Shown here piece after piece: positions 24,691 to 64,000 of a stretch of DNA of 64,000 nucleotides. The notes under the pieces are model-generated. The model was given only the letters and a program-made list of their open reading frames with translations. It was not told where the DNA came from and did no database searches. The number at the start of each line of letters is the position of its first letter. The first letter of the stretch is position 1. This stretch comes from Pegea sp. RAD2-039. Taxonomy: Eukaryota > Chordata > Thaliacea > Salpida > Salpidae. A program made the translations under genes and the position numbers. The stretch spans positions 124,001 through 188,000 of the forward strand of contig JAQGEQ010000290.1 of NCBI GenBank assembly GCA_034620365.1. Reading direction: 5' to 3'.

Positions 24691-27138
24691 ATATTTATTA
24701 TGAAATAATAAATTAAAGAAAGTGTTCAGTATATTAAGTTTCATATAAAGTTCTTAATTATTTTTAAACTGTATAAGCAAATTAGTTTTATTACAGTATG
24801 CTATTAAGAAATACTGTTTGAAGAGAATTTACAAGAATTGAAAATTGTTTTTTAAAAACAAAAATATTTATCAAAAACCAAAGATGTTTTTTTGAAACAA
24901 TTGTGTAAAAAACAAAAGTTTGTATTTAGTCTACCCAGTTTAACAATAATAAATTATAAATTTTCTTGAAAAAAAAAGTTCTTATGTTTGTAAAGAAACC
25001 TTCGGTAGGCGACTGCAAGCTTCAAAAAGTAGTGCTGGACAACTTTCCGTGTTTTAACATTTTTTTTTGAGCTTTATTGAGTATCAGAGTTCTTAAAATC
25101 ATAATGGCACACCTCTACAACTGATAACTTTTAAACTTTTATGCTTTAAGCCAAGCTTATATAGAGTTAAGCTAGTTTGAAATATGTTTGGTTCTGTCAT
25201 AAAAATTAGTATAAATTTATTACTATTACTTTCTTTCTAAATTTACAATATATTGAAAAACTACGGATTATAAGTCTAATCATTCTACAGTTATTATAGA
25301 GTTTGCTCAAGTAGAAAAAGTTGTTCTTTTTGCTTATTTCAATAATAATAATTGTACTTTGTTTATTAAGCCGATTTATAAAACCTTAAATATATAAACT
25401 TATAAATCGATAATTTCAACAATCCTTAGCTAAAAAGTTTTATTTTTTTGTATATAAAGTTTGTACGAAATTGACAAAAAAAAATCTATTTTTTTGATAC
25501 TAAAGTAAATTTTATTTTATAAACATTAAATAATATCCTTAGAATTATTTTGTCTTTTTAGCATTTAGAGATTACTTATTTAAATACACTGTTTTCTTAA
25601 AAGGGGGTTATGGCTTTCTAATTTTTGGGTTCGCCCTTTGGTTCTAAATTCAGAAAGTATTTGAATATTAAAAACGTTGCAAAATTCGGGTATGCTAAAA
25701 TTAAAAAATATAAATTTTAGATTAAGAATTAGTATTTTAACTGAATTATAACCCAACATTATGGTTTTTATTAAAAACATTTACTAAATATCATTTGTTA
25801 ACGTATTGTTTATTTGTTTGAAATATCAAAATTTAATATTTATACAAAAAATTTCACATTTTTGTTGAGCGATTTAAATATACATTTTAATGTGGAAATA
25901 AATCTGACAATTTAAAAAAGTTATTAAAGTTAAATTATGTGAGAACTTTAAATTTGAATATTGTTTTTTTTATAATTTTAACCTTTTTTCTATTTTTTAA
26001 ATAAAGTATATAAAAATAAATATTTGAAAGTAATTATAATTTTTACTATATATTGACTTTTTGAAGTTATATTTTCTTAGACTAGTTCATGACTTAAATC
26101 TAGTAAACTTTTGATGGTTTCTTGAGCTAAATACTTAGATTTAATTTTGTTAAAATTATACTGAAACTTTTAGTAGCTATTTTAATTCTCAAATTGTATG
26201 CTTGTTTATTTGGTTATATTTTTTGTTTTTATTTATTTAAATCTTTAGAAATAACGTTTTTTTCTAATTTTAAAATCTTATAATATAAATATTTGAAATA
26301 TTTATCCAAATAAAACTTATTTTTTATCATATAAGGAAAATCTTAGCAGATAAATTGTATATTAAAAATATATAATATTTAATTAAATATAAATTATTTT
26401 TTTGCAAAAAACTAGTCAATAGAGTATAAAGTTAATATTTCTAATATATTTTTTAATTAATAAAGGTATATTTTTCTTAAAAAAGTTTTGTTAAAGGAAC
26501 TTATTTTTTTAATATCACAATTTAAAAATATTTGGGTTAAATTTGTAGATTACATCAGATTACAAATTCATTAATTTTAAGATAAAAAATTGACTCCAGC
26601 ATTACAAAATTAAATTTTCTTTTTTAGTATCAAAAAAATGATTTATAAAATTTTATTTATTAACAATTATATGTATATTTAAATCTGCTTATTTATGAAT
26701 GATTTCATAAATTATATACATATATATACTTTCTTATAGCTCATATACTTTCTCAACAATAGGACATGTTTTTTCAACTAATATTTTTGTTTGAACTATT
26801 TACCCTTATTATAATAATTAAATAAATTTTGTAAGTTTATTTTTACGCTTGGTTTATGCTTTAAAGCTTATATTGTTTTATTTCAAATATTTTGCTTAAT
26901 AATCAAGTTTTTATGTTATTTTTTGAATAATAGCTTATAATTTTTGTTTAAATATAATAAAGTTCTAACTTTTTAGATAAAAATAAGCTAATTATGATAT
27001 TAAATATAGGTCTGTTTATAATTATTTATATTATTTATCCTTGACTTATATTTAAAATTTATTTTTTTCTTAATGCTAGGCGTCAGTTTATTTCAATTGT
27101 TGACTTGATAAGTTTGATTTTTCATTGATATTTCTATA
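24691..27138. other. Intergenic, extremely AT-rich, no gene seen
   Basis: Long AT runs, among the poorest GC content of the window. Upstream flank of the aPKC gene; no exon or RNA recognised. Confidence 0.6.
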
Positions 27139-43654: not shown

Positions 43655-43818
43655 ATACTTACCTGACGGTAGTCGAACAGTGATCAGGCAGACTGTTGGC
43701 TCAGGGCGAGGCCTATCCATTGCACTGCGGATATGGTTGACCCCTGCGATTGTTCCAAATGTGAACAACTCGGCCGTAGAATTTCTTACATGGGGCTATG
43801 CGTTCGCGCAGGCCCCTC
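43655..43818 (+). ncRNA. U1: U1 spliceosomal snRNA
   Basis: 164 nt, the same length as human U1. The 5' end ATACTTACCTG is the 5' splice-site recognition sequence. Stem-loop II has the U1A-binding loop ATTGCAC (CCATTGCACTGCGG), and the body reads CAGGGCGAGGC and TGACCCCTGCGATT as in other U1 RNAs. Stem-loop IV is a GGGGC/GCCCC hairpin with GCGTTCGCGC at its end. Two deviations: the stem-loop I loop reads GATCAGGCAG instead of GATCANGAAG (U1-70K site), and the Sm-site region reads AATTTCTTA rather than the usual AATTTNTGG. U1 starts spliceosome assembly by pairing with 5' splice sites. The shared upstream element argues for a working gene, though the deviations leave room for a variant copy. 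Confidence 0.93.
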
Positions 43819-44855
43819 TCTTCCAAACAAGCGATTAGAAGATAATTGAGTAGCGTTATGCGCGAAGTCTCAATTTATTGGGACAATGTGAAAGCCGCGG
43901 TAAATACGAATTTAAATTCTTATGAATCGACTAACCTATGAAATGCCTTAAACACTTTTTTACAAAACTTAAACAACTTTACTGAAAGTTGTACTGCAGA
44001 GTTTTAGTTAGAACTAAACAAGAAAATTTATAGCAGTTTACAGCTTTTAGATACTTAAAAGAATTCTAATAAATATTAACCAAATTAATTTTTGTTATAG
44101 CTTATCTGAAATAAAAAAAAGTTAATGTCATCCTGTATATTCTAAGTGTCATATATGAAATAATATGTGAAAAAGAACTGAATTTATAAAAATTTGTCAA
44201 ATCACGATTTGTAGTTGCGTGTTCTAGTGAGATTGAAATAAACTGTCAGCTATTTAAAACCAACAATTATTTGCTTTTGTGACTAAAACTACTAAGCGTG
44301 AATTAATAGAATTATTTTTATGGCTATTATTTGATTTATGTGGTTAACTTATGGTTAAAAATCAATGAAACTATTCTAAGCATAGGTAACCCAAGTTATA
44401 AAATTTAAACTGAACATAAACAAGTTACTTCTTATATAAATGTTTTCAACAAAACCGGTTTTCAACAATAGTCTATAAAAGTAATCTTGAAGAACCTAAA
44501 ACTAAATTTCATTCACTAATTGATCTATTGAGTTCATTCTAAAGTTTTCAATTTTACAATTTGAAGCAAATTTGCTTTATTAAAGATATTAAAAGTTAAC
44601 TTTAATTATTATTTTAACAAATATATTAGTTTGATGTTAACTTGATAAATTATTCAGTGATTACTTTCCTAGCAAGAATTGAAATGATATAAACCTGAAA
44701 ATACCTTTTTATATAAATATTAGTAACTAGTTTTTACATTATGACATATTTGTTTAATATATTAGTTGAATCGACAATACCTTTTACGTTTTATAAAAGG
44801 ACTGCAAATAGCAAATTATATTTACTTTAAATTAAAATTTTTAATTTGCAGCCGT
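43819..44855. other. Spacer between U1 and tRNA genes
   Basis: About 1 kb of AT-rich DNA. The first 80 bp after U1 contain a GC-richer word (near 43860-43900, ending GAAAGCCGCGG) whose role is unknown. No second PSE-like word was seen. Confidence 0.45.
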
Positions 44856-44929
44856 GGCCGGTTAGCTCAGTTGGTTAGAGCGTCGTGCTAATAACGCGAA
44901 TGTCGCGGGTTCGATCCCCGTACTGGCCA
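44856..44929 (+). tRNA. tRNA-Ile (anticodon AAU)
   Basis: 74 nt full cloverleaf. The acceptor stem GGCCGGT pairs with ACTGGCC, with discriminator A. The D arm is TTAGCTCAGTTGGTTAGAGC. The anticodon AAT is at 44890-44892 after the invariant T. The anticodon stem TCGTG/CGCGA shows a compensatory C-G swap relative to the common animal TGGTG/CGCCA, which supports function. B-box GGTTCGATCCC. No intron. No T-run follows before the next tRNA. Confidence 0.97.
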
Positions 44930-44937
44930 TGTTCTTG

Positions 44938-45009
44938 TCCTCGTTAGTATAGTGGTGAGTATCCCCGCCTGTCACGCGGGAGATCGGGGTTCGATTCCCC
45001 GACGGGGAG
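44938..45009 (+). tRNA. tRNA-Asp (anticodon GUC)
   Basis: 72 nt, almost identical to human tRNA-Asp. The acceptor stem TCCTCGT pairs with ACGGGGA, with discriminator G. The anticodon loop CTGTCAC carries GTC, and the T arm is CGGGGTTCGATTCCCCG. It begins only 8 bp after tRNA-Ile ends. Confidence 0.97.
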
Positions 45010-45013
45010 CTTA

Positions 45014-45019
45014 TTTTTT
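45014..45019 (+). terminator. RNA polymerase III T-run terminator
   Basis: TTTTTT starting 5 nt after tRNA-Asp. It is the first run of four or more T after the tRNA-Ile start, so it may end a transcript of both tRNAs. Confidence 0.75.
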
Positions 45020-45234
45020 CTTATAATTTTATTATTCTTTTTAACTTGTTTTAGTAAAAATTAGTTTAGAACTTTTTATTAAATTTTGATAATTTCATAT
45101 ATACAGTTGTTGAACATTTTTAAAATTCAAATGAAATTTCTAACTCACAAAACTTTTTTCGACAATTTTAAATGTTTTTTTCTCTAAATTATTTACAGAA
45201 AACATTACTTCAAACAAGATTAAAAATACGCGGT

Positions 45235-45250
45235 ACCCACAAACAGTAAA
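45235..45250 (+). promoter_or_regulatory. Proposed proximal sequence element (PSE) of U4
   Basis: ACCCACAAACAGTAAA begins 59 bp before U4 +1 and differs at one of 16 positions from the word before U1. A TATATATA run lies at about 45263-45270, roughly -30. Confidence 0.75.
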
Positions 45251-45293
45251 CTTAACAACGCGTATATATATGAGACGTCTTCACATAATATTT

Positions 45294-45439
45294 AGCTTTG
45301 CGCAGTGGCGATAACGTAACCAATGAGGTTTAACCGAGGTGCGTTTATTGCTAGTTGAAAACTATACCCAATACCCCGCCCTATCGACGTGAAAAACCGT
45401 CGATTGAGGCAATTTTTGGCGGGTGCCAACTTGGCGCCC
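45294..45439 (+). ncRNA. U4: U4 spliceosomal snRNA
   Basis: About 146 nt (human 145). It starts AGCTTTGCGCAGTGGC, which forms stem II with U6. The 5' stem-loop holds the k-turn bound by SNU13/15.5K (CCAATGAGG and CCGAGG). The central region ATTGCTAGTTGAAAAC is the stem I partner of U6. A Sm site AATTTTTGG follows, then a 3' hairpin GGGTGCC/GGCGCCC. All conserved blocks are in order with no disruptive change, so the gene looks functional. U4 holds U6 inactive in the U4/U6.U5 tri-snRNP. Confidence 0.96.
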
Positions 45440-46174: not shown

Positions 46175-47743
46175 TTACAAAATCCGTTTTCTGCATTCTT
46201 TATGGCCACATGTACACAAAATAACTCTGTTAGGAATCGTACCAGCTTGGTATCCGTAATCAAAGGTCAGTTCTTCGCCTCGTTTTACATTTCTGTTTGT
46301 AAAAAACGCTAATTGGGGAAATCTGACGTCATGAGAGTTTGTAAAAACTGTTTGAACCACCATATTAGGTCTACAACTATGATTAAAGAATCGGCTGATA
46401 TTCCCAGTATTTTGGGAATCAATTATATGAACTTCATTACCAATCCATTTACGATGAGACTTTTTCGATTCTGATAACTTCACTTTCTTTTTTTCTTCTT
46501 TCTTTTTATACAATTCAAAAGTAATTATTTCGTTTTTATCTAGTTCTAAATCAGAATCGAAATCTGAAAGTGGTTCAGAATCTGTTGATACTAAACTATC
46601 TTGATCTGAAACCAACTTTGACTTAGAAGTTTCGACATTTTCAATAAAATCCAACTCGAAAAAGTAAGTATCACCATATTTGCCTGACTCCACACCTCTG
46701 TCTGCTTCAGTCTCAGTTTTGATTTCACCAACATAAGTGATGATAAAACTTCCATTAGGAATGTTGTCCAAGCTACGCACTCCCCAACCTTTACTGGCAG
46801 TTTTAAACATTTGTAAACGAGCAAAAGACCCGTTTTGAACAACTCTATTCAAACAACTCGAATTACAACTGCATCTGTCGTTACACTCATAGATGCCAGT
46901 TGTGACTACTTTTTTTAAACGCTTAAAAGTATAACCAACGTTTCGATTGACGCGTTTGTTGTAAGATGTTGAATTGATGGTGAGTTGTTGGCATGCACAT
47001 GTTGCTCGATTAGTGCAACCATCTGTACAATCACAACATATCAGAAAGTCTTTATCATCTATAATGTTGACTTCTTTTGAAGGGATTCTTTTGGTGATGT
47101 AGGGTATGACTTTGGGAGCTGTATTATCAATTGTGTTGATACAAGGCACAGGAATCAATTCTTTGTTTTTAGAATAATCAAAATTAAAAAACTTGGCATT
47201 ATTGTTGATATAATGAAGTTTTGAATAAATGCGAAATTTGATATCAAAGCAGAAAAGGTCTATTTGAAGATTAGTAACTTTATTTGAAACTAAATACCGA
47301 AGTATCTGATGAATGCTTTTAAAAACTTCACCATTTGGTGAGATGTAGTTAACCATTTGTTGGAAATGTCTCCTTTTCCAGCCAAGTAACAAAGGTTTCA
47401 TAAGAGGTGGGACTTCTACAGATTCCTTGAGCCATTCCAAATGAGATAAACTTTTGAAAAAGTCGATATTTGAATGTTTTATTGATTCTACTGCTGAAGA
47501 GCCTTTAATGCCATTAACCTCAAAACTTTCTGTATCTACACAGATTTTATATTCCCCGTTATAAAATTCTTCTACTAAATAATTCTGTTTTGATGTTTTT
47601 AAACTCAATAAAGCATTAGAAACATTTACATCTTTTGGTAATTCTTCAAAAGGTGAAAATGGAGGATTTCTTTTTCTTCTCTTTGAGTTATTTTGGGAGA
47701 TAATTTCACAGTTTATTTGACATCTGTTGTTTTCCTTGGCCAT
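46175..47743 (-). CDS. SETDB-type histone H3K9 methyltransferase (MBD, pre-SET, bifurcated SET, post-SET)
   Basis: A single uninterrupted coding exon of 522 aa. Start chosen at 47743 (MAKENNRCQ) because a TTTTCATAG acceptor lies just upstream and the frame before it is hydrophobic AT-rich sequence; a first ATG at 47851 would add 36 unlikely residues. Order: MBD-like region (about residues 120-170, PLLLGWKRRHFQQMVNYISP), pre-SET zinc cluster (CCDCTDGCTNRATCACQQL and YECNDRCSCNSSCLNR), SET with GWGVRSL, an acidic/lysine-rich insertion of about 70 aa splitting the SET domain, then ISRFFNHSCRPNMVVQ, GEELTFDYGY and post-SET CTCGHKEC. SETDB enzymes place H3K9me3 in heterochromatin and at transposons. 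No Tudor domains, so it looks SETDB2-like. The lack of coding introns, when every other protein gene here has many, raises the possibility of a retrogene. Confidence 0.9.
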   Translation of the reverse strand: MAKENNRCQINCEIISQNNSKRRKRNPPFSPFEELPKDVNVSNALLSLKTSKQNYLVEEFYNGEYKICVDTESFEVNGIKGSSAVESIKHSNIDFFKSLSHLEWLKESVEVPPLMKPLLLGWKRRHFQQMVNYISPNGEVFKSIHQILRYLVSNKVTNLQIDLFCFDIKFRIYSKLHYINNNAKFFNFDYSKNKELIPVPCINTIDNTAPKVIPYITKRIPSKEVNIIDDKDFLICCDCTDGCTNRATCACQQLTINSTSYNKRVNRNVGYTFKRLKKVVTTGIYECNDRCSCNSSCLNRVVQNGSFARLQMFKTASKGWGVRSLDNIPNGSFIITYVGEIKTETEADRGVESGKYGDTYFFELDFIENVETSKSKLVSDQDSLVSTDSEPLSDFDSDLELDKNEIITFELYKKKEEKKKVKLSESKKSHRKWIGNEVHIIDSQNTGNISRFFNHSCRPNMVVQTVFTNSHDVRFPQLAFFTNRNVKRGEELTFDYGYQAGTIPNRVILCTCGHKECRKRIL

Positions 47744-50341
47744 ATCAAGAATTTCAAAAAAATCAATCCTATGAAAACTTATAAACATAACAATTGTAAA
47801 AGTTAAATTATTAGCTTTTTTAGTAAATACTATAAAACCATTTAAACACATAAAAAAATAGAATTTACTAAATCTAAAACTATTAACAAACCCTTAGCAC
47901 CTCAAACATTTTTCCTAAGGACAATTTTGAATTTCAAGTTCTATAAATAGATTTGATCAAATTTTAGATCAATATGAGATAAAAGTGAAACAAATTTAAT
48001 GTTTTAAAATAATTTTCATAGAGCTGTTACTTGACAAAAATTAATATCAAATAGATATGAAGAATTTTATATATTTGAATTTTCAAGTGTAGTTTATAAT
48101 TTCAAAAAAATTATCATAATAATTAAAATAGGTAATTTTCAAAGAATTAATTTATAAAAAGATATTTTAAAAGTTATATTCTATTATAAATATATAAATA
48201 TGAAAAACTAAATTCTTTTTATAATTAAAAACTATCACAAAAATATGAGAAAAACTTTTTCAAATGTTTAACAAAACTATATAATAATAATTTATAAAAA
48301 TAATCTAAATCATAATAAATATTATCATCTTTTATACTGACTCAGCAGATAAAATAGTATATTGTAAAAATAATAATAAACAGTTTACGATTTCCAAACA
48401 ATCAAATTATAAGGATGAAAAAAATTAAAAACTCTAGAGACTTAAAAATGTTACTAAAATTTGTATTTTAAAATGAGAATATATCAAAACAAATAAAAAT
48501 TTATTAAAAGTAACAAGTTAAAATATGATAAAAAATTGTTTGAAATATAAAGTGTCCGTTTAAGGTAATTACAGCAAAATGTTTCATATTTTCATAAGAA
48601 TAAGTGAAAACTGGTTGAAATGACCGTAATCGATTTTTGCGGAATTTACATGAACGTTTGCGTTTTACGGCATTGCTCAACTTGCAAACATAAAAATAAT
48701 TGATTCAATCTTATTTAATGATACTCAGAAAGAATTTATAAGAGAATTTTTAAATTAATCATCACAAATGTTTAATATAGTATATAGAAATTGGTATGAT
48801 AACTTGGCAAATATTTGATTATTGATATTTAGCTTGTTTCTTGAACTCTTTAAATATCTACTTTTTCAAATCAACCGGGTTTTGTGTTTTTAAAAATAGA
48901 TACATTATATTATTAAAGGGTATATAGATTTAATTAAAAATAACTTAATTATTATCATTTTTTTTAATTAGGCCATAGAAACATTATCGGTCAATGGTAT
49001 TAAAAAAATGTTGATTTTATTTAGACTATATAATAAAAAATATGAGTCACATACGTTTTATTAGTCAGTAATTTTTTCAAATCAACTTTTCTCTTTAAGA
49101 CTTTTTTGTCAAGTTTTATGAGAAAGAGCTTGCAATTACAAGTTTAATCAAATGATATGAGTTAAGATGGTCTAAAAATGTTTTTGTAATATCTACCGAT
49201 TTGCAATAAAAACGATAAAAGTTTTCAAGAGCTATTTTGTAACCATACAAAAACTAAATTTTTAAGTACCTAAAGACAGAAACATTTAGAAATATTCAAC
49301 AAAAATTATTTCAATTAAATCTTTACACTAAACTTAACTTGAACAAACCACATTAGAAGTATATTTAGGCTTTTTCTGTATATTTATTATTTTATCAGTT
49401 ATTTTTAGCAATAGCTGATTAAAAGACTTTATAAAAGGGTCTTATTTATAAGCTTTATTAATATTTTGTATTAAGTTTTGTTTGAAGTTAGTAAATCAAT
49501 TTATTTTTAAACAATTATTTATGATAAATTTTTAAGATAAAGTAAACACAAAACAATGAAAATAAACACAAAAAAAATTGGAAAGTTTTGTTTAATTAAT
49601 AAAGTTACACAATAGTATAACTAATAAAACAATTCTTTCTTTTTTTGTTTTTTTATACAGTGTTAGCATAATATTATTAGAACGATTAAAGATAACTCAA
49701 TTTAAAAATATTTTTTATAGTGTTTTTATGTAGTTTATGGTTTAGAGACTTAATGTTGTTTATTTTCACGTTAAATCTGATATTTTTAACAAATTTTTAA
49801 ATCTTTTGATTGCAGTTTATGTGGGTGTTAATAATAATGTATAATTTAAAAAATTACAGAAAGTTTTGTCATTAAAAGCTGATTATTAAATGTAATTAAT
49901 TTTTAATTATATTATTAAGATTTAATTTGAAGATTTTTTTTGAACTTGAGAAAAAATATTGTGAAATAATCCCAAAATTTTTATAGCATATAAATATATA
50001 TTTTTTCAATGTTATTATTTCTACTTTTGTTAGATCAATTTGTTATTGTTTGTTATTACAATATATTACAAACTAAAAATTGAATTTAAAATTTTAGATT
50101 TTGTTTGACAAATATTTCTGATTAAATTTTTAACTAAAGAAATTTTTAAAAGTATTTTCTAATGAATTGGTAAAGTTTTTTTCCTTCAAATTTTGAATGA
50201 AAAATTTATATATTATTACTATATTTAACTAGAATTATTTCTTTTTAGTTTGATTTTAAATAAAAAAATTGTAAGGGTGTTTTATAAATATATGAAGTAG
50301 TTATTTTAAATAAATTCAGACAGTGCATATGATAATTTGAG
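47744..50341. other. Intergenic, AT-rich, no gene seen
   Basis: Divergent interval between the SETDB-like gene (-) and the BEACH gene (+), presumably containing both promoters. No other feature recognised. Confidence 0.55.
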
Positions 50342-53300
50342 ATGCCTGTTGAATTTGATGTAATAAAGAATGATCTAAAATCATTTCATGTTGAAAGATT
50401 GTCACAAGCTAGCATGCAAGCAAAAACTTGGCAAGAAAAATTTCTGGTTTTGGAATCATTGATAAATAGTGGCAAAGTTTCAGATCCTGATATAGTTGAT
50501 ACTGTGTTTGATTTGGCAAGTTTATCATTTGTTTATTGTTTCGAAAGTAATAAGTTTGTTTGTCTATAAAATGAAAATTTCACTTTATTTCACAAGAGTG
50601 TAATATTTAATTTTTATTCTTTTATGTCTAAAATTTCTTTTGTATTTAGATAAAAAGGCTTTTCTGTTTGCCAGAGTAAAACTTTTTGATAATTTAACTT
50701 GTTGATAATTTAACTTGTTGATAATTTAACTTGTTGATAATTTAACTTTTTGATAATTTAACTTGTTGATAATTTAACTTTTTGATAATTTAACTTGTTG
50801 ATAATTTAACTTGTTGATAATTTAACTTGTTGATAATTTAACTTGTTGATAATTTAACTTGTTGATGATTTAAATTGTTGATAATTTAACTTGTTGATAA
50901 TTTAACTTGTTGATAATTTAACTTGTTGATAATTTAACTTGTTGATAATTTAACTTGTTGATAATTTAACTTGTTGATAATTTAACTTTTTGATAATTTA
51001 ACTTGTTGATGATTTAAATTGTTGATAATTTAACTTGTTGATAATTTAACTTGTTGATAATTTAACTTGTTGATAATTTAACTTGTTGATAAGTTAACTT
51101 GTTGATAATTTAACTTGTTGATAATTTAACTTGTTGATAATTTAACTTGTTGATAATTTAACTTGTTGATGATTTAAATTGTTGATTTATGAGGTCAGTT
51201 TGTTGATATTTTTGTGTGATTCCCATTATATTTAACAGATATTTGTCAGCTAGTTTAAATATGAACTTTGAATGTATTGAAATATGAGATTGACCTAAAT
51301 TAAAATTAATCATAATTTTTAAGATTTCATTTGATATAAATAAATGATAATTTTATATGAAATCACTTTTGAAATATTTTTATTCAACAAAAATGTTGTT
51401 TTATAGTTGGTTGGAGGTGATTTCGATTTGGAAACAAATTTTGTCATCACAGAGGATGAAAATATGGAAGAGCAACATAAGATTATGAAGATGTTAGATG
51501 TGATGCAGCTTTGTAGCATTCAATGTCAGGTTTGTGAAATTTACTTTCTGGCTTTTAAAAAGGGATATAAATTGAGATGTGATTGATTATTTAAAGTTAT
51601 TTTTAAAATCTCATTTCTAACTAACTGAATTTTAGATTTCAAATCATTTTAATTCAAAAAAACTTTTATTTCTTAAAAATATCTTTTTTAAAAATATTTT
51701 TTTTAAAGTTTTTTAATAATTTGATTAACATTTTACAACGGAAAGACTTATTTACAATTAAATTTAAATCGCTTTGTGAATTGAAAAAAAACATTTTCAA
51801 ATTCAACAAATTTATTGATTTTTTTTAAGGCTGAGATTTGGAGCAAATTTAAAGGGATTTGTAGGAAAAGTTTTCGTAATTTACAAGCTTGTGTCGATAT
51901 CCATTTAGTAGAAAAATTGTTGAAAATTCTTAATTCATCTGATGAAGTAATCTCTGGTGAGGTCTTAGTTTGATTTATTTAATCTAAGTAGTTTTGAAGT
52001 AAGTAGCTTTTTTTGGATGAAGCTTCAGTTTAGAGCCTCGGGCATTTCTGTGTTTAGTCATGTGTGGCGACGTCAACATTTGTTCAACAATTATTTGGAT
52101 CCATTGAAATTTCCTCACCATTTTTCCTTCATTTGATATTTTACGTAAATCATAGGAAGTTTTTTCAACAACATCAATTTTTTTTATTGCTTTCACTTCC
52201 TCAAATGATTCCTTTGGTTTTGAAGCAAATATTTGTTGAAAATTTTCATTTTAAGGTTTCTAATTTCCAACAAAAAAGTTTTTTTTTCAAATTATTTTGT
52301 ATTATTCAAATATTTCTTTCCAAATTCCTTTCTTCCGTTTCGCAGCTTTCTTCAAGTATAAATAATTGAAAATGTTTGAGCGGAATGTATGTGCGCGCGC
52401 ACTCTACTGCGCATGCGCAATTTCGTCATTTTTGTTTCACACCGAAAAATCAGCGCGCTCTTATATCACCGTGACAACCGATCTATTTACAGAATTGATC
52501 GTAGATATGTTGGCAATCCTCGTATCATATAATGTCACTGTTAAAGAATTGAAACAACTTTTGAGTATGTTGAAAGGCGAATCTGGCAAATGGGTAATCA
52601 GCTGATTAAAGTGGTCGTCACCATGACAACCAATTACATTACAGAATCAAAACTCAGTCAAGCTACTAACTGTCCTACAATCATCACCCGATAAACATGG
52701 ACCGGACTGTTTCTTCCACTTTTCAGGGCAACCAAATTCTGCTATTGCCCTACCACCAATCAAATCGTGGCCTTATGCAAATGGGTTCACTTTTACAACT
52801 TGGTTCCGAACAGATCCTTTAAACAACCTCCGAGTAGATGTAGACAAACCATATCTTTACTGGTTGGTCACGTGCTCACTTTTATTGAAATAAATAAGTT
52901 TTTTGTTGCAGTTTTCGTAACAGTAAAGGTCTCGGATATTCTGGTCATTTCGTAGGTGGTTGTTTTATTATTACCATCTTAAAAACTAAAGCAAAAGGAT
53001 TCCAACATTGTATGAAATTTGACTTTAAACCCAAACAAGTTAGACATTTTAATAATTGTTATCATAAAAATTAGGAGTTAAAAATTTGAGAAAAGTTAAA
53101 AATTTTAATTTTATGTCAGTGGTACATGGTGACAATCGTCCATATCTACAACCGATGGCGCGCGAGCGAATTGAAATGTTACGCGAATGGACAATTAGCT
53201 TCGGCATGTGAAATGAACTGGTGTGTCGGTGGCAATGACGTAAGTGACATCTCGCGGTGATGACGTCATCTTATCATGTCATACAGCAATTCGATAAATG

Positions 53301-56300
53301 CTTTTTGGGTTCTGCGGAAAGTGGCGACGACACGCGCGTGTTTTGTGGGCAAATGGCGGCCGCGTACGTGTTCAGTGAAGCGTTAACAGCCTCACAAATC
53401 TATGCTATCTATCAATTAGGAGCAGATTATAAAGTGAGAAATGATATTCATCGAAGCGTGAAGCTAACCACGTGACTTGAAATAGAACCAGTTTAAATTT
53501 GCTACTGAAAGTGACCACTTATTAGCAAATCATCATCGTAAGGTGTTATATGATGGTGGCAAGTTAGCTGAATCTTTATTATTTGCTTATAACGCTAAAT
53601 CAACTGATGGTCAGTTATCTTTGGAATGTTCGCCGCGAAGTTATGCACGAGATGTTGCTGGTGTAAGTAACAACGACACCCAACGGTGGTTTGTTCACAG
53701 TCCTCATGCGTTAATGTTACCGGTCAGTTACAAATTGTTTTCCAAACATTTGCTTAGTTACCAAGCTTCGTTGCTAGGGAGTTCAAGCGGTCGTTACCCA
53801 CTCAATTCATTCAGCTCTTCATTCAGTAGGAGGCGTCGAAGTTTTATTCCCACTTTTTGCACAATTAGATTACAAGCAACAAGATGGAAGCACCGACACC
53901 ACTGTTTGGTAACTAGCTCACCACTACTGCCACCTAGTGACCACTTCTTCCTTCATAGTTCATCACTTCTTCATTTCCTCTTCCAATTACTGAGAGGATC
54001 AGTAAAGACACAGCAACAGATGTTGCATGGAAAAGGATTTCTCGTCATCGGGGCTTTATTAGAAAAAGCCAACAAATCCCACATCACAAGTGAGCATCTG
54101 ATCATCACGTGATGATGACGTCATCACATTGCGTTTCAGATGACGCGCTTGACTCGTTGATTCGAATCGGTAAGCTTCTCGAGAATGCTCCAAATGGAAT
54201 TATTTTGATGAGACAATTTTGTGATCATATACTCTTCAACCCAGCTTTGTGGATTCATACATCACCAAAGGTGCCCCTGAAAGTTACCAAAACGCCCCTA
54301 ATTGCCCCGTCATCTGTTTCTAGGTACAAAATTCGCTCTATACATTCCTTGCCACTGAGTTAGTGCAATCAACCGCGATACAATCGAGCGTTCGTCGTGT
54401 CAGCACTGTTCTACTCTTCATACATGCTCTCAAACACTATTATTGGGTTGTAAATCCCTTACCCCGATCTGGTATCACTCCAAAGGGGTTAGGTGAGTAT
54501 AAGATCACGTAAAAGTGATCTTGAAGTGATCCTTTGATCTTGCAGATGGTAAAAGACCTTCTCCTGACGAAATTTTATCGCTTCGCGCTTTTATTTTATT
54601 ATTTATTAAACAAATTATCACAAAATCATCTCAAGTATCAGAAGATGAAATTCAATCAATTTGTGGTTACCTCCTGACTATACATGAGGTCTGTGGTCAC
54701 TACTTGTTGTCCTATCACCACTAATTCGTTGATTATTAGGACGACAATTTGTTAGATGTGGTTCAACTACTTGTAGCAATGATTAGTGAACATGGTTCTA
54801 CGGTTGCACCTGTTTTTGATAGTAGAAATGGGTTAGCAGTTGTCTACAAGTTACTAGCTTCTAAATCACTTTTAGTTCGAGTTCAATCTCTCAAACTACT
54901 CGCCTACTTCCTCAAGAACTCTACATCCAAGTAAGACTTACTGATCTCCATCTTCTAATCTTCATCTTCTGATCTTCATCTTCTAATCTTCGTCTTCTAA
55001 TCTTCATCTTCTAATCTTCATCTTCTAATCTTCATCTTCTAATCTTCATCTTCTGATCTTTATCATCTGATCTTCATCTTCTAATCTTCATCTTGTAATC
55101 TTCATCTTCTAATCTTCATCTTCTAATCGTCATCTTGTAATCTTCATCTTGTAATCTTCATCTTCTAATCTTCATCTTCTGATCTTCATATTCTAATCTT
55201 CATCTTCTAATCTTCATCTTCTAATTTTCATCGTCTAATCTTTATCATCTGATCTTCATCTTCTAATCTTCATCTTGTAATCTTCATTTTCTAATCTCCA
55301 TTTTCTAATCTTCATCTTCTAATCTTCATCTTGTAATCTTCATTTTCTAATCTTCATCTTCTAATCTTCATCTTCTGATCTTCATCTTCTAATCTTCATC
55401 TTCTAATCTTCATCTTCTAATCTTCATCTTCTAATCTTCATCTTCTAACTTTCATCTTCTAAACATTATCTTCTAATCTTCATCTTGTGATCTTTATCTT
55501 CTAATATTCATCTTCTAATCTTCATCTTCTAATCTTCATCTTCTGATCTTCATCTTCTAATCTTCATCTTCTAATCTTCATCTTCTGATCTTCATCTTCT
55601 AATCTTCATCTTCTAATCTTCATCTTCTGATCTTCATCTTCTAATCTTCATCTTCTAATCTTCATCTTCTAATCTTCATCTTGTAATCTTCATTTTCTAA
55701 TCTTCATCTTCTAATCTTCATCTTCTAATCTTCATCTTCTAATCTTCATCTTCTAATCTTCATCTTGTAATCTTCATTTTCTAATCTTCATCTTCTAATC
55801 TTCATCTTCTGATCTTCATCTTCTAATCTTCATCTTGTAATCTTCATTTTCTAATCTTCATCTTCTAATCTTCATCTTCTAATCTTCATCTTCTAATCTC
55901 CATTTTCTAATCTTCATCTTCTAATCTTCATTTTCTAATCTTCATCTTCTAATCTTCATCTTCTGATCTTCATCTTCTAATCTTCATCTTGTAATCTTCA
56001 TCTTCTAATCTTCATCTTCTAATCTTCATCTTCTAATCTTCATCTTCTAATCTTCATCTTCTAATCTTCATCTTCTAATCTTCATGTTCTAATCTTCATC
56101 TTCTAATCTTCATCTTCTAATCTTCATCTTCTAATCTTCATCTTCTAGTCTTCATCTTTTGATCCTCATCTTCTGATCTTTTAATCCCACAGACGCAAAT
56201 CCGAGCTATTGGAATCTCAGTCTTTATTTGCGTTGATTGGCGAGAGACTTCTTTTACACGACGATATCTTGAACATCACAACCTACAATGCTCTCTACGA

Positions 56301-59300
56301 AGTTATGATTGAGAAACCTTGTACTCAAGTCCTTCATAAACCACATCAAGATCAAATAAACGCTGTCATACACAATCCAGGTTGCCATGACAACCGACAA
56401 CTTCTGGTCACTAACAACATCTCTCACAGCTATCATGAAAGTTATCGGTTGTATTTTACGAGTTTGCGTCAACGAGAACAATGTTGATGACGACACTGAT
56501 GACGTCATGACCATCAAACTACTATTTCTAAATGATTTGTTGAAATTATTTGAAAGTTCTTCTGAAAACCGACGGATTTTATTACAACAATCAGTTTGGC
56601 AAGATTGGTTAGTTGATATCGGGTACCTCCGACCTTCAACCCCTGTACAGGAACAATGTCAAGATATCATCTACAAACTCTTCCAAAAACTTCTTCATCA
56701 TGCGATTCGTGTTGAGTGGGGTGGATGGAGGGTTTGGGTAGACACGCTAGCAATCATTCACTCCAAGGTATTCCTCATCATCATCATCTTCATTTTCTTA
56801 ATCTTCTTTTTGATCTTTTGCAGATCTCATATTTGGATTATGAGCTTCATGTTAAAAAATTGGAAGATACTTATAAAAATCGTTCGCGTGATGATTTGCA
56901 TGATGACGTCACTGAATCAGAGAAGGCTGATGACGTCACTGAATCAGAGAAAGTTGATGACGTCACTGAATCAGAGAAAGTTGATGACGTCACTGATTCA
57001 GAGAAAGTTGATGACGTCACTGAATCAGAGAAAGTTGATGACGTCACTGAATCAGAGAAAGTTGATGGCGTCACTGAATCAGAAAAGGCTGATGACGTCA
57101 CTGATTCAGAGAAGGTTGATGACGTCACTGAATCAGAGAAAGTTAATGACGTCATTGATTCAGAGAAGGTTGATGACGTCACTGATTCAGAGAAAGTTGA
57201 TGACGTCACTGAATCAGAAAAGGCTGATGACGTCACTGAATCAGAGAAGGTTGATGACGTCACTGATTCAGAGAAGGTTGATGACGTCACTGATTCAGAG
57301 AAGGCTGATGACGTCACTGATTCAGAGAAGGTTAATGACGTCACTGATTCAGAGAAGGTTGATGACGTCACTGATTCAGAGAAAGTTGATGACGTCACTG
57401 AATCAGAGAAAGTTAATGACGTCACTAAATCAGAGAAAGTTGATGACGTCACTGAATCAGAGAAGGTTAATGACGTCACTGAATCAGAGAAAGTTGATGA
57501 CGTCACTGAATCAGAGAAGGTTAATGACGTCACTAAATCAGAGAAAGTTGATGACGTCACTGAATCAGAGAAGGTTGATGACGTCACTGATTCAGAGAAG
57601 GTTGATGACGTCACTGAATCAGAGAAAGTTGATGATGTCACTGAATCAGAGAAGGTTGATGACGTCACTGATTCAGAGAAGGCTGATGACGTCACTGATT
57701 CAGAGAAGGTTGATGACGTCACTAAATCAGAGAAAGTTGATGACGTCACTGAATCAGAGAAGGCTGATGACGTCACTGAATCAGAGAAAGTTAATGACGT
57801 CACTGATTCAGAGAATGTTAATGACGTCACTAAATCAGAGAAGGTTGATGACGTCACTGAATCAGAGAAGGTTGATGACGTCACTGACTCAGAGAAGGCT
57901 GATGACGTCACTAAATCAGAGAAAGTTGATGACGTCACTGAATCAGAGAAAGTTGATGACGTCACGAAAGCAAAATTACCTGAGCAGCAAGAAAAGGTAA
58001 ATTTGTCGAATTTCCGAGAAAGTCGAAAAATATTTTTTTTTTTTTAGGAAATTAATCAAAATGAGAAAAAGCAATTTAGTCCAGGTCCAAAAACTTCTCC
58101 ATTTCGTGTCCCTGAATTTCGTTGGAATCAAATTCATCTTCGGGTTTTAGATGATTTATTTTCTTGTATCGAACAAGATATCGAAAGTTGGAAATTGTAA
58201 GTCTATTAGACGTACATTTGATGACGTCATCATTGTTTACGTCATCAGGAGCAGTAATAGTGATAATTTGAATGACGTCATCAATGCAAATGATAATGTG
58301 GTTTATATTCACAATACAGTTCATTTAGTTTCACAAATGATGGATAATATTGTATTAGCTTGTGGTGGCATCTTACCTATTTTATCATCAGCTACTTCAC
58401 CAACAGTTCGTTTCCTTTTCATATTTCAAATCTTTTTTTGATATTTTTATGCTTTTAGTATGAATTGGATTCTATCGAAGCATCTCAAGGTTTAAGTTTA
58501 AATGAAGCTTGGTCTATTCTTAACCGATTAGTGGGTTTTGTGGAAGTTGTAACTTTTTCATCATCTATTAGTTTGAGTGAAATTGAAACTGAAAAAAATA
58601 TTTCAAATGGAGGAGTTTTAAGACAATGTTTACGGGCAGGTTAGTTGCTAAGTGGTTTTAGATGGTTGCTAAGTGGTTTTAGATGGTTGCTAAGTGGTTT
58701 TAAGTGATTGCTAAGTGGTTTTAGATGGTTGCTAAGTACTTTTAAATGGTTGCTAAGTAGTTTTAAATAATTGCTAAGTGGTTTTAAATAGTTGCTAAGT
58801 GGTTTTAAATGGTTGCTAAGTGATTTTAAATGATTGCTAAGTGGTTTTGAATGATTGCTAAGTGGTTTTAGATGGTTGCTAAGTGGTTTTAGATGGTTGC
58901 TAAGTGGTTTTAGATGGTTGCTAAGTGGTTTTTAATGGTTGCTAAGTGGTTTTGAATGATTGCTAAGTAGTTTTAGATGGTTGCTAAGTGGTTTTAAATG
59001 ATTGCTAAGTAGTTTTAGATGGTTGCTAAGTACTTTTAAATGGTTGCTAAGTAGTTTTAAATAATTGCTAAGTGATTTTAAATGGTTGCTAAGTGGTTTT
59101 GAATGATTGCTAAGTGGTTGCTAAATGATTTTAAATGGTTGCTAAGTGGTTTTGAATGATTGCTAAGTGGTTTTAGATGGTTGCTAAGTGGTTTTAGATG
59201 GTTGCTAAGTGGTTTTAGATGGTTGCTAAGTGGTTTTAGATGGTTGCTGAGTGGTTTTTAATGGTTGCTAAGTGGTTTTAAATGATTGCTAAGTAGTTTT

Positions 59301-62300
59301 AGATGGTTGCTAAGTACTTTTAAATGGTTGCTAAGTAGTTTTAAATAATTGCTAAGTGATTTTAAATGGTTGCTAAGTGGTTTTGAATGATTGCTAAGTG
59401 GTTGCTAAATGATTTTAAATAGTTGCTAAGTGGTTTTGAATGATTGCTAAGTGGTTTTAGATGGTTGCTAAGTGGTTTTAGATGGTTGCTAAGTGGTTTT
59501 AGATGGTTGCTAAGTGGTTTTTAATGGTTGCTAAGTGGTTTTAAATGATTGCTAAGTAGTTTTAGATGGTTGCTAAGTACTTTTAAATGGTTGCTAAGTA
59601 GTTTTAAATAATTGCTAAGTGGTTTTAAATGGTTGCTAAGTGATTTTAAATGGTTGCTAAGTGGTTTTGAATGATTGCTAAGTAGTTTTAGATGGTTGCT
59701 AAGTGGTTTTAGATGGTTGCTAAGTGGTTTTAGATGGTTGCTAAGTGGTTTTTAATGGTTGCTAAGTGGTTTTAAATGATTGCTAAGTAGTTTTGAATGG
59801 TTGCTAAGTGATTTTAAATGGTTGCTAAGTGGTTTTAAATGTTTGCTAGGTTATTTTAGATGGTTGCTAAGTACTTTTAGATAATTGCTAAGTAGTTTAA
59901 AATGATTGCTAAGTAGTTTTAAATGGTTGCTAAGTGGTTTTAAATAGTTGCTAAGTGGCTTTAAATGATTGCTAAGTAGTTTTTAATGGTTGCTAAGTGG
60001 TTTTTAATGGTTAGTAGGTGGTTTTAAATAATTGCTAAGTAGTTTTAAATGATTGCTAAGTGGTTTTAAATGATTGCTAAGTGGTTTCAAATGGTTGCTA
60101 AGTGGTTTTAAATGGTTGCTAAATGATTTTAATTAATTGCTAAGTGGTTTTAAATAGTTGCTAAGTGGTTTTAAATGGTTGCTAAGTGGTTTTAAATGGT
60201 TGCTAAGTAGTTTTGATTGGTTGCTAACTGGTTTTAAATGATTGCTAAGTACTTTTAAATAGTTGCTAAGTAGTTTTAAATGATTGCTAAGTAGTTTTAA
60301 ATGGTTGCTAAGTGGTTTTAAATAGTTGCTAAGTGGCTTTAAATGATTGCTAAGTAGTTTTTAATGGTTGCTAAGTGGTTTTTAATGGATGCTAAGTGAT
60401 TTTAAATGATTGCTAAGTGGTTTTAAATAATTGCTAAGTAGTTTTAAATGATTGCTAAGTGGTTTTAAATGATTGCTAAGTGGTTTTAAATGGTTGCTAA
60501 GTGGTTTTAAATGGTTGCTAAATGATTTTAAATAATTGCTAAGTGGTTTTAAATAGTTGCTAAGTGGTTTTAAATGGTTGCTAAGTGGTTTTAAATGGTT
60601 GCTAAGTAGTTTTAAATGATTGCTAAGTGGTTTTAAATGATTGCTAAGTGGTTTTAAATGATTGCTAAGTGGTTTTAAATGATTGCTAAGTGGTTTTAAA
60701 TGGTTGCTAAGTGGTTTTAAATGATTGCTAAATGATTTTAAATAATTGCTAAGTGGTTTTAAATAGTTGCTAAGTAGTTTTAAATGATTGCTAAGTGGTT
60801 TTAAATAATTGCTAAGTAGTTTTAAATGATTGCTAAGTAGTTTTGATTGGTTGCTAACTGGTTTTAAATGATTGCTAAGTAGTTTTAAATGGTTGCTAAG
60901 TGGTTTTAAATAGTTGCTAAGTGGCTTTAAATGATTGCTAAGTAGTTTTTAATGGTTGCTGAGTGGTTTTTAATGGATGCTAAGTGATTTTAAATGGTTG
61001 CTAAGTGGTTTTTAATGGTTAGTAGGTGGTTTTAAATAATTGCTAAGTAGTTTTAAATGATTGCTAAGTGGTTTTAAATGATTGCTAAGTGGTTTTAAAT
61101 GGTTGCTAAGTGGTTTTAAATGGTTGCTAAATGATTTTAAATAATTGCTAAGTGGTTTTAAATAGTTGCTAAGTGGTTTTAAATGGTTGCTAAGTGGTTT
61201 TAAATGGTTGCTAAGTAGTTTTAAATGATTGCTAAGTGGTTTTAAATGATTGCTAAGTGGTTTTAAATGATTGCTAAGTGGTTTTAAATGGTTGCTAAGT
61301 GGTTTTAAATGATTGCTAAATGATTTTAAATAATTGCTAAGTGGTTTTAAATAGTTGCTAAGTAGTTTTAAATGATTGCTAAGTGGTTTTAAATGATTGC
61401 TAAGTGGTTTTAAATGATTGCTAAGTGGTTTTAAATGGTTGCTAAGTGGTTTTAGATGGTTGCTAAGTGATTTTAAATGATTGCTAAGTGGTTTTTAATG
61501 GTTGCTAAGTGGTTTTAGATGGTTGCTAGGTGGTTTTTTACACTTTTCTTATCTTACAGCTTGCTTGTGTGCTGTTCGCAATTGTTTAGAAACACGATAT
61601 ACAACCCCTACTTCATCAAAACATCATCAACCAGTCGATACTTCAATTACATTCCTTCCCGATGCTGATGACGTCATCTCACCTATTGAACGCTCATTTG
61701 TTGCTCAGGTAACTAACCATTTATCCTCAACTAATATCAACATTGACGTCATCAGAGGGTAGATGATACTTTAATGACGTCAGCAAGTGAAGCAGCGCGC
61801 TTATTAGTGTCACAAATGTCACGTGATGCGACACCGATCCTAGATCGCGCTCTTCTTCTTCAACATCTCGATTTGGATCGTCTTCGGTCAATCATCTATT
61901 ACCGTGAAATGGTAAGTTTTATTTTTCGGGGTTCCCTATTTTTGTCAAACTGTCCCGACATCACTGATGACGTAATCGATTCGCGATATGTTAGAAATTA
62001 CGACGTTTGTCGATCGATTGTGAAGCAACTCGTCACGACGCCTCAACACCTTCTAATCGACTTCAACAAAAGGTTGTCATGGCAACTAATACGCGTTTCC
62101 CACTAACCCACTAACCCCAACCCCCTTGGTAATCAACAACATCAATTTGATGACGTCATCATCATAGGAAGACACCAAACAAGCTCAGTTCCTTGGAATC
62201 GCGGTCGTCTACTTTATTTCGGTGCTGATGGTTTCCAAATATCGAGATATTTTAGATCCTGTTGGTTACGAACGTTTACGAAATGAAAATGTTCCACACC

Positions 62301-63892
62301 GCTCAGGTATTTCCCCGTTTCATTGCTGTCTGGTTGCTAAGCGACAATTTGTAGTTGACAACAACACATCAGATCGAAGTAGTGATGACGTTGTTGGTGA
62401 TGATGACGTCACAATTGGTGAAGATCATTCAACTGGTTTGTAAATTGTTAAAAATAGAAATTTTTTGCTCTTTTTTCGTCTTTCTGACGTATTTGTGATC
62501 AATTATTCATAATGTAAACAAAATTTGATCGATAATCGCGTCTCTGACGTCATCTTATTAAATCTCATTCACAGATGAAGATGTAAAGTTGAAAGAAAGC
62601 ACCAACGTAAAAGTAAGTCCTCTTCATCCTGATCTTCAACCTGATCTTGATCTTCATCCTGATCTTCATCCTGATCTTGATCTTCATCTTGATCTTCATC
62701 CTGATCTTCATCTTCATCCTGATCTTGATCTTCATCTTGATCTTCATCCTGATCTTCATCCTGATCTTCATCTTCTGATCTTCATCCTGATCTTCATCTT
62801 CATCCTGATCTTCATCTTTTAGGACATTCTTCGTAATCTCACCAAAAAGAGTCCAACTTCTAAATCAATGACGTCACCGACTTTATCGAATCTGAAGAAC
62901 AATGAACAAGTGAGAAAGAAGTCCCAGAAACGCGGATGAATACTAAATCCCAATTTTTAGGTGAAATCGATTCAATCAGCGTTTCAATCTTTTGATCGAA
63001 GCGTAGTGGTCAAGTCCACGCCCCAAAAAGGTGCCCCTGTTTGTTTATACATCATATATTTACTCATATGACTAAATAGGTTCAACAAATGGTCAACAAA
63101 CCCGACTTCCACCTCACTTCAACACTGAACACATCTCACCAAGCAATTGTTAGTTTTATATCCGCTAAATGGAGTAAAGAGTCTCGATGTTTTTCAGATT
63201 CCGATGTTTCTTCACAATTAGAACGTTCCATGAGTAATTTATCATCAATCATCAAAGATATTTTTGTCGATTTTTCATCTTATCTCAGCAAAACTCTAAT
63301 TGGTAGTCACGGGCAGGAACTACTGGTTGAAGGTAAGTTCTACATCCGGGTATTTCCCAAATCTGAAACAATTTCGATAAAAGGATTGAATTGTATGAAG
63401 TCTCATACCTCGGTGGTGGAAATTGTGATGTTGTTATGTTCACAAGAATGGCAAAACTCAATTCAGAAAAATGCTGGACTTGCTTTTATCGAATTAATTA
63501 ACGAAGGAAGGTAAGCGGTCGTCAAGCACAGCACTTGACAACCGACATCTTTGTTCTTTCTACAGGATTTTGTGCCACGCCATGAAGGAGCACCTCGTTC
63601 GTGTTGCTAATGAAGCTGATTTCATTTTAAGTAAACAAAAAGCGGAAGAAGTAAAACAGCACGCGGCTTTTCAGGTTGAGCTTGTGACGTCATCACTACT
63701 GTTACGTCATCACTCAATTTTGCAGTCAGCAAATGCGATGTATACGTCACAACAACGCGATGAAGAGAAGCAATGTGATTCGTTGATTAGTGCAGCGAAA
63801 CATCGCGACCACGCTCAAGCAAAAGCTCTTAAAAACCGAATCACGAATATTTTAACAAATAAGCTCGGAGCATGGGGATCAGATTTTGACAG
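50342..63892 (+). CDS. Neurobeachin/LRBA-family BEACH protein, N-terminal part (runs off the window)
   Basis: Thirty-two exons, about 1941 codons: 50342-50515, 51407-51529, 51830-51956, 52493-52593, 52645-52862, 52912-53038, 53120-53237, 53287-53433, 53492-53722, 53778-53908, 53959-54089, 54140-54270, 54324-54492, 54546-54688, 54740-54930, 56193-56380, 56430-56767, 56824-57996, 58048-58196, 58249-58405, 58459-58639, 61560-61708, 61756-61911, 62168-62435, 62575-62612, 62823-62909, 62961-63030, 63080-63148, 63198-63332, 63384-63510, 63566-63674, 63726-63892. The family are large cytosolic scaffolds of vesicle traffic that bind PKA RII. Human-like blocks: concanavalin-like fold ([30 protein letters not shown]), [68 protein letters not shown] and BEACH domains lie beyond the window. 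Intron 1 uses a GC donor. Exon 7 appears 2 nt short near 53222. Exon 18 holds a coding tandem repeat. Confidence 0.93.
50681..51190 (+). repeat. 16-bp minisatellite in BEACH-gene intron 1
   Basis: About 31 head-to-tail copies of TTGATAATTTAACTTG with few variants (TTTTTGAT, GATGATTTAAATTG). It lies wholly within intron 50516-51406. Confidence 0.97.
52408..52419. promoter_or_regulatory. Perfect NRF-1-type palindrome
   Basis: TGCGCATGCGCA in BEACH-gene intron 3, inside a small CpG-rich patch (52390-52460, GTGCGCGCGCAC nearby) that stands out from AT-rich surroundings. It matches the NRF-1 consensus and could mark an internal promoter or enhancer; function is inferred only. Confidence 0.4.
54943..56180 (+). 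repeat. 14-bp pyrimidine-rich minisatellite in BEACH-gene intron 15
   Basis: Roughly 88 copies of AATCTTCATCTTCT with single-base variants (TGATC, TTGTAATC). It fills almost all of the intron 54931-56192. One strand is nearly all T/C with scattered A. Confidence 0.97.
56902..57966 (+). repeat. In-frame 30-bp coding minisatellite with a CRE palindrome per unit (BEACH-gene exon 18)
   Basis: About 36 copies of a 30-bp unit encoding the decapeptide [10 protein letters not shown] (variants TDSE/TKSE; V/A and D/N at the end). Most units contain TGACGTCA, the full CRE/ATF site; a few are broken (for example near 57065 and 57632). The frame is fixed by flanking family sequence: exon 18 opens with [13 protein letters not shown] and ends KLPEQQEK. 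The array occupies the acidic, poorly conserved linker of the family, so it is probably disordered. T-E-S-E fits a CK2 site in each unit. Other frames, including the reverse strand, are open only because 30 is a multiple of 3. Confidence 0.96.
58641..61535 (+). repeat. 21-bp minisatellite with higher-order structure in BEACH-gene intron 21
   Basis: About 138 copies of a 21-bp unit (TTGCTAAGTGGTTTTA plus RATGR). It fills the 2.9-kb intron 58640-61559. Distinctive variants recur as blocks: the word GATTGGTTGCTAACTGG appears near 60214 and again near 60844, about 630 bp (30 units) apart, with matching variant order after each. This indicates duplication of multi-unit blocks. Confidence 0.97.
62622..62820 (+). 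repeat. 12-bp minisatellite in BEACH-gene intron 25
   Basis: Copies of ATCTTCATCCTG alternating with ATCTTG variants, filling most of the intron 62613-62822. It resembles the 14-bp array of intron 15 in being pyrimidine-rich. Open frames here on both strands are repeat artefacts. Confidence 0.93.
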
Positions 63893-64000
63893 GTGGTCCT
63901 CGTTTGTGGTCGTCATTTGTGGTCCTCGTTTGTGGTCCTCGTTTGTGGTCGTCATTTGTGGTCCTCGTTTATGGTCGTCATTTGTGGTCCTCGTTTGTGG
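63893..64000 (+). repeat. 13-bp minisatellite in BEACH-gene intron 32 (continues past the window)
   Basis: Alternating GTGGTCCTCGTTT and GTGGTCGTCATTT units, starting directly at the splice donor of exon 32 (AG|GTGGTC) and still running at the last base. Confidence 0.93.

Follow-up and report, generated by a model that had tools for sequence, protein, structure and literature searches.

A coding tandem array inside a Neurobeachin/LRBA-type BEACH gene is built on a palindrome, TGACGTCA, which is the core of a full cAMP response element (CRE) and is iterated through the whole genome. Taken alone, the array is an ordinary coding minisatellite; what is unusual is the genome-wide iterated CRE palindrome behind it, with 27,792 copies in a genome of 105.7 Mb, where the octamer spelled backwards occurs 969 times. 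The explanation that we rank first, and to which we give about an even chance, is that the minisatellite formed around this genome-wide word and that the word would be kept by selection for CREB/ATF-type bZIP binding. The window, which is the whole stretch of DNA that was analysed (64,000 nucleotides), had been described before in a first-pass annotation that reported the array and missed that its word recurs through the whole genome.

The array lies in frame on the forward strand at 56901-57965, where Tandem Repeats Finder (TRF) gives a period of 27 bp and about 39.4 copies. According to the unit table, each unit is translated into a nonapeptide, (V/A)(D/N)DVT(E/D/K)SEK, in a frame that is continuous with the upstream exon. 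The pattern search, the unit comparison and a recount agree on 38 perfect TGACGTCA sites between 56904 and 57964, one per 27 bp within 1.06 kb; the palindrome is intact at 38 of the 40 register positions and changed at 57066 and 57633. The first-pass annotation was thus right in kind and wrong in detail. The coding tandem array in a BEACH-family gene is there, in frame with the flanking gene and free of stops, and so is the dense ladder of palindromes, since the window holds 56 copies against 0.55 expected, 18 of them outside the array. The period is 27 bp and not 30 bp, the copies number about 39.4 and not about 36, the repeated peptide is a nonapeptide and not a decapeptide, and there are 38 perfect palindromes where about 34 had been counted. 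As the DNA helix makes a turn in about 10.5 bp, the spacing of 27 bp corresponds to about 2.6 turns, which replaces the earlier “just under three”.

The array-bearing exon (56824-57996, forward strand), whose splice sites were placed by eye on genomic DNA rather than from RNA, has phase 0 on both sides, and no stop codon occurs from 56824 to the donor after 57996. The repeat unit is a multiple of 3 bp and lies inside an open exon of a homologous gene, as in coding minisatellites. Two further reading frames of the array are also open, so the frame assignment rests on the conserved flanks, the same ground on which the earlier description had placed it. In Pfam, the array exon gives just one sub-threshold match of low complexity. 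Beyond forming an acidic linker of variable length and, locally, a dense platform for a CRE-binding protein, the array probably has no special function.

Pfam, PDB and tblastn matches identify the host as a Neurobeachin/LRBA-type BEACH gene, part of which lies at 52300-64000 of the forward strand and which continues into the adjoining piece, L024 (C115:188001-196000). Three exons upstream of the array match DUF4704 (PF15787) and two exons in L024, past the window end, match Beach (PF02138), all over the Pfam cut-off; one of the two Beach exons matches Neurobeachin (E 1.5e-42) and LRBA (E 2.8e-41) in the PDB (1mi1/1t77). The BEACH-family assignment of the first-pass annotation is therefore confirmed. 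In a tblastn comparison, with an NBEA sequence as the query, the array sits between HSKVTYEAHKEYLAKMY and QFSPGPRTTMFRIPEFKW. Human NBEA has a long, poorly conserved linker at the corresponding place, and these alignments place the array in the linker between conserved parts of the predicted Neurobeachin/LRBA-type protein. In the one conserved exon that is alignable, an exonic site that reads DDVI aligns without gaps to NDVD of Neurobeachin, which fits an origin of the site by substitution; an origin by insertion, which was also considered, finds no support in this ungapped alignment. At least one conserved position of the BEACH protein reads DDVI because of the palindrome.

The same region holds other features. 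A Mab-21 domain (PF03281, E 4.7e-6) is encoded on the reverse strand at 2899-3171 of L024, opposite to the BEACH gene; nested MAB21-like genes within such genes are known in animals. This nesting and the homology to Neurobeachin/LRBA point to an animal as the source of the DNA. No match was found to a nematode SL1 sequence, with up to 2 mismatches allowed, or to a rotifer spliced leader, with up to 3. Long minisatellites, seemingly intronic in the BEACH gene, lie at 54944-56180, 58644-61537, 62621-62818 and 63893-64000 of the window and at 1-1024 and 5276-7094 of L024, with 14-, 21/42-, 12/30- and 13/26/39-bp units, and the palindrome is in none of the consensus units listed.

Thirteen of the 18 window sites outside the array fall in the BEACH gene, in exons and introns alike. 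The exonic ones are found at 56500-56507 in the exon preceding the array exon (reading DDVM), 58273-58280 (NDVIN), 61669-61676 (ADDVISPIE), 61775-61782 (LMTSAS), 62404-62411 (GDDDVTIGE) and, placed by eye, 62869-62876 (SMTSPT). The intronic ones, all assigned by eye after the pattern search, are at 53261-53268, 54116-54123, 58222-58229 (3’ of the array), 61744-61751 (directly 5’ of an acceptor) and 63685-63692 in short introns, and at 62151-62158 and 62545-62552 in other introns. Among 20 short introns picked by hand and read by eye in this gene, 12 carry one or two sites; the set is not a census, and some of its exon/intron borders are displaced by a few bases. The five remaining sites start at 23213, 28567, 28763, 29448 and 46324, outside the BEACH gene (23213-46331). 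The window also contains a reverse transcriptase fragment (RVT_1) at 23789-24694, LINE-like by eye, U1 and U4 snRNA genes with two tRNAs in between (43655-45437), and, on the reverse strand at 46178-47893, a protein with MBD, Pre-SET and SET domains.

The enrichment of the palindrome extends to the genome at large. A 150-kb sample from 15 places contains 34 copies of TGACGTCA against 0.84 expected from an order-2 Markov model, and when the window and the L024 pieces are added to this sample, TGACGTCA ranks first among the 256 octamer palindromes, with both-strand counts of 158 against 2.7. Among the 10-mers listed for the sample, ATGACGTCAT is the most enriched palindrome. The 79 non-array sites are extended symmetrically by TGA/TCA toward TGATGACGTCATCA, the half-flanks being T in 69%, C in 54% and A in 57%, and this 14-mer is present 1,972 times in the genome, its reverse 0 times. 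Clusters of three sites, 9-39 bp apart, number 2,115 against 0 for the reversed pattern. The palindromic octamer is therefore far over chance genome-wide, which is one mark of a word like the cyanobacterial HIP1; another, that the word is spread through coding and non-coding DNA and is not carried by one repeat, is also found here.

The preference is specific in its spacing. Relative to the means of 3 simulations, with the repeat-rich locus L019 left out, half-sites at spacing 0, which form TGACGTCA, are the only strongly enriched arrangement among spacings 0 to 4 (66 against 1.0 expected); spacings 1 to 4 gave 0, 1, 4 and 2 against 3, 1, 1.3 and 1.7, the first of them being TGAC-N-GTCA (0 against 3). 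In the same simulations, no enrichment was seen for AP-1 sites taken together (21 against 19), for C/EBP-type words or for TTACGTAA (3 against 4). Two mild excesses, of TGACGTAA (7 where 0.3 are expected, with 2 against 1.7 for its complement) and of lone half-sites (143 against 104-119), indicate that the preference extends slightly beyond the full palindrome. Genome-wide, a second palindrome is enriched, the E-box TCACGTGA, counted here as ACGT-type, with 4,614 copies against 237 for its reverse. Searches of the literature for this palindrome, its extension and HIP in eukaryotes found no report of such an iterated palindrome in an animal among the titles listed, although unlisted or differently worded papers may escape searches of this kind.

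The flanks of the sites are mostly unlike each other. When 100 bp on each side were compared at E 1e-4, 67 of the 79 non-array sites matched no other site at a distance of more than 220 bp; closer pairs, in which 50 of the 79 sites take part, lay outside this comparison. Ten of the 12 sites with a flank match are in L019 and two in the window (a 32-bp match); in L018, two sites fall in a 29-bp tandem repeat. A dispersed mobile element as the carrier of the sites is not supported, given these 67 unmatched sites. The L019 repeats are a local family on contig C50, where at least 49 copies of one segment, counted among the best candidates scored, extend over about 250 kb on the same strand (C50:75878-325607), all matches reported being on this single contig. 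Many sites with mostly unlike flanks cannot be copies of one carrier, and they point mainly to substitution followed by favouring of the word, or to a sharp bias.

The sites are clustered, the first 100 listed reaching C1:1,563,266, which amounts to about 64 per Mb where the genome averages 263, and L024 holding 27 in 8 kb. They are present in exons (in both stop-free frames), introns and other parts of the genome. Translated, the word can give D-V or x-T-S, the third frame being a stop. Four of the 34 random-sample sites are in ORFs of at least 100 aa, which make up 10.6% of the sample, so coding DNA is, by this crude measure, neither avoided nor preferred. Two loci illustrate how dense the word can become in other genes. 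At C1:2049500-2052300, 28 sites lie in 2.8 kb, many of them in open frames, and a 194-aa open frame that matches BTB (E 1.3e-14) reads DV or MTS at many sites. At C1:5276400-5280400 (L025), 76 sites in 4 kb belong to a giant coding array of a 63-bp unit with two sites, QLDEKNQEVTSLKDQMTLMTS, whose Pfam matches are generic coiled-coil families. The peptide of this second array is unrelated to that of the BEACH gene and is read in another frame; the element common to both is the DNA word. The suggestion in the first-pass annotation that the array could be a minisatellite expanded around a common genomic word has thus held up, with 27,792 genomic copies and unrelated TGACGTCA arrays elsewhere.

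Evidence that the word is maintained differs between the three sets of repeats examined, from good through weak to absent. In 35 ungapped units of L025, the CpGs of the palindromes are changed in 0 of 70 cases against 8 of 35 in the neighbouring TGACGTT control (p = 8e-5), and in the 17 distinct units that remain without the indel-shifted ones the counts are 0 of 34 against 7 of 17 (p = 2e-4), both p-values being optimistic because the copies are related by duplication. Over all columns of L025, 2 of 560 palindrome cells vary against 89 of 1,645 elsewhere; in the rotation test, this contrast is equalled by 6 of 63 rotations (by 9 of 63 when three indel-shifted units are dropped), which is not significant. 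The comparison of the palindrome with other positions within the window array, proposed in the first-pass annotation as a check, came out on both sides: variable cells number 2 of 312 in the palindrome and 54 of 741 outside it, but 3 of 27 mask rotations perform equally well, which is not significant, and three non-palindrome third positions are as fixed as the palindrome ones. In the C50 family, the palindrome is hardly more conserved than its surroundings. Across 23 distinct copies (20 of the 49 matches plus three L019 copies), diversity is 0.128 in the 16 palindrome columns of two of the four sites and 0.145 elsewhere, the other two sites being excluded because they are present in under half of the copies; the four sites are intact in 5, 11, 12 and 12 of the 23 copies. 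An early sign of conservation in L019 (mismatches at 8 of 152 palindrome-column positions and at 798 of 3,211 others) had come from overlapping pairs and was not seen again in the wider 23-copy set.

Comparisons that bear on decay are mixed. The window and L024 pieces, which hold 45 intact sites, contain 16 one-mismatch forms where 15.6 are expected; the random sample has more of these forms than expected (51 against 30.4), with TGATGTCA at 17 against 6.6. Genome-wide, TGACATCA/TGATGTCA number 11,070 against 2,673 for the reversed control, an excess that fits some decay.

The course of events that we favour would begin with a genome loaded with an iterated palindrome, with TGATGACGTCATCA as its extended form and the full CRE, TGACGTCA, as its core, so that a seed site was already present in the linker of the BEACH gene. 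Local tandem duplication of a 27-bp segment that carried this site would then have produced the coding minisatellite in a weakly conserved part of the protein. The sites themselves would have been gained by substitution, and the word would be kept since a bZIP dimer of the CREB/ATF class would bind it to the benefit of the organism, presumably by opening chromatin or aiding transcription across the gene body. The genome encodes candidate readers: among its 12 bZIP_1 matches over the cut-off are an exon at C14:685225-685353 that matches CREB1 (E 2.2e-18, for the exon alone and not for an assembled gene) and another exon that matches Jun-D. Since TGACGTCA has the exact spacing of a CRE and a CREB/ATF-type protein is encoded, a bZIP dimer is the most natural reader of the word. 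It is a point against selection for bZIP binding that about 28,000 sites, many of them intragenic, far exceed the needs of a usual regulatory role.

Two other accounts explain the word by different forces. The one ranked second, which we regard as fairly improbable, is that a mutational or repair bias without any benefit makes or protects TGACGTCA, either because a methylated or bound ACGT core is protected or through biased conversion, akin to the repair model put forward for HIP1 of cyanobacteria (PMC4390886). It would accommodate the lack of a tie between sites and coding DNA (the 4 of 34 in ORFs), the little extra conservation of the palindrome in the C50 family and the enrichment of another ACGT palindrome, TCACGTGA. 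However, protection of CpG alone would hardly raise one 8-mer 40-fold when its one-mismatch neighbours, taken together, stand at 1.0 to 1.7 times expectation, and other ACGT palindromes, such as TTACGTAA, are without enrichment. A little less probable again, and third in rank, is that the palindrome marks sites of meiotic recombination, like M26 of fission yeast, which is 5’-ATGACGT-3’, is bound by Atf1-Pcr1 and is active at some sites in coding and non-coding DNA, while roughly three in four M26 sites do not promote recombination, a point against the comparison (PMC6827382). Breaks and conversion at the sites would raise local GC and promote minisatellites, and would thereby explain the palindromes, the high GC and the arrays together in the BEACH gene. 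GC is 0.37 within 250 bp on each side of the 34 random-sample sites against a background of 0.277, and it falls with distance from a site, as fits conversion, from 0.389 (<100 bp) through 0.355, 0.297 (300-1000 bp) and 0.272 to 0.249 (2-4 kb), with 0.261 beyond; the hand-picked short introns of the BEACH gene have a GC of 0.39 against 0.25 in two long site-free stretches; and all TRF arrays of more than 100 bp in the window begin at or past 50,680, in or beside this gene. The GC gradient is, however, confounded with gene density, which explains it as well, and sites correlate with tandem repeats over 111 bins (rho 0.30) but not when the 75 bins of the random sample are taken by themselves (rho -0.09). 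Moreover, a break-promoting site should vanish by conversion and not build up.

The two remaining accounts are more local in scope. Hairpins between copies in short introns and in the array might aid splicing or alter the transcript, a role in RNA that we consider very unlikely: the first 400 nt of the array do fold better than shuffled sequence (z = -6.4, 0 of 100 shuffles as good) and 12 of the 20 hand-picked introns carry sites, but any palindrome array folds likewise, the sites are not confined to introns, and 9 of the 12 site-bearing introns hold a single site, so that there is no second copy to pair with in the same intron. Least probable of all, and by far, is that the array is a special decoy or enhancer that titrates or recruits bZIP factors at the BEACH gene, as the first-pass annotation had proposed. 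Its 38 perfect sites in 1.06 kb speak for such a role; they are also 38 of 27,792 genomic sites, or 0.14%, which makes titration by the array implausible, the gene at L025 has 76 sites in 4 kb, and the copying of one site explains the array. Recruitment on a local scale may still occur at the array.

Selection for bZIP binding remains the reading that we place first. In its widest form, to which we give slightly less than an even chance, selection would act across the DNA of an animal genome on a palindrome of the CREB/ATF type, with about 28,000 core copies, and with enough strength to write D-V and M-T-S motifs into unrelated proteins, fill short introns and seed coding minisatellites; the word would be a eukaryotic counterpart of HIP1 that would perhaps serve the opening of gene-body chromatin or meiotic recombination. 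If the word is selected, binding for regulation or recombination acts as a genome-wide force on animal coding sequence, tandem repeats around the palindrome form a natural series for binding-site dosage, and the old question of what maintains highly iterated palindromes gains a eukaryotic case; if its origin is mutational, the bias is unusually sharp and sequence-specific.

Compared with known systems, the array is like other coding minisatellites in its head-to-tail, in-frame units within a weakly conserved linker, and it differs from them in that a palindrome iterated through the genome underlies its unit, just as in the unrelated array on C1. The host shares DUF4704 and BEACH domains and, by alignment to the NBEA query, the conserved linker flanks with Neurobeachin/LRBA, whereas its linker holds the array. 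The palindrome has the exact core and spacing of the full CRE, the element of CREB/ATF bZIP dimers, together with the preferred context ATGACGTCAT; known CREs are used mainly in promoters, whereas here exons, short introns and coding repeats carry the predicted site. With the M26 hotspot of Atf1-Pcr1, some sites of which work inside coding DNA (PMC6827382), it has the same half-palindrome in common, a likeness seen at the level of sequence, although here it is the full palindrome that is strongly enriched. The closest parallel in kind is with HIP1 and the other iterated palindromes of cyanobacteria (GCGATCGC), which are likewise short, very frequent and, in some genomes, found with a preferred extension (PMC4390886), while in the present case the word is another one, the genome is intron-bearing and animal-like, and the sites form clusters on the scale of genes.
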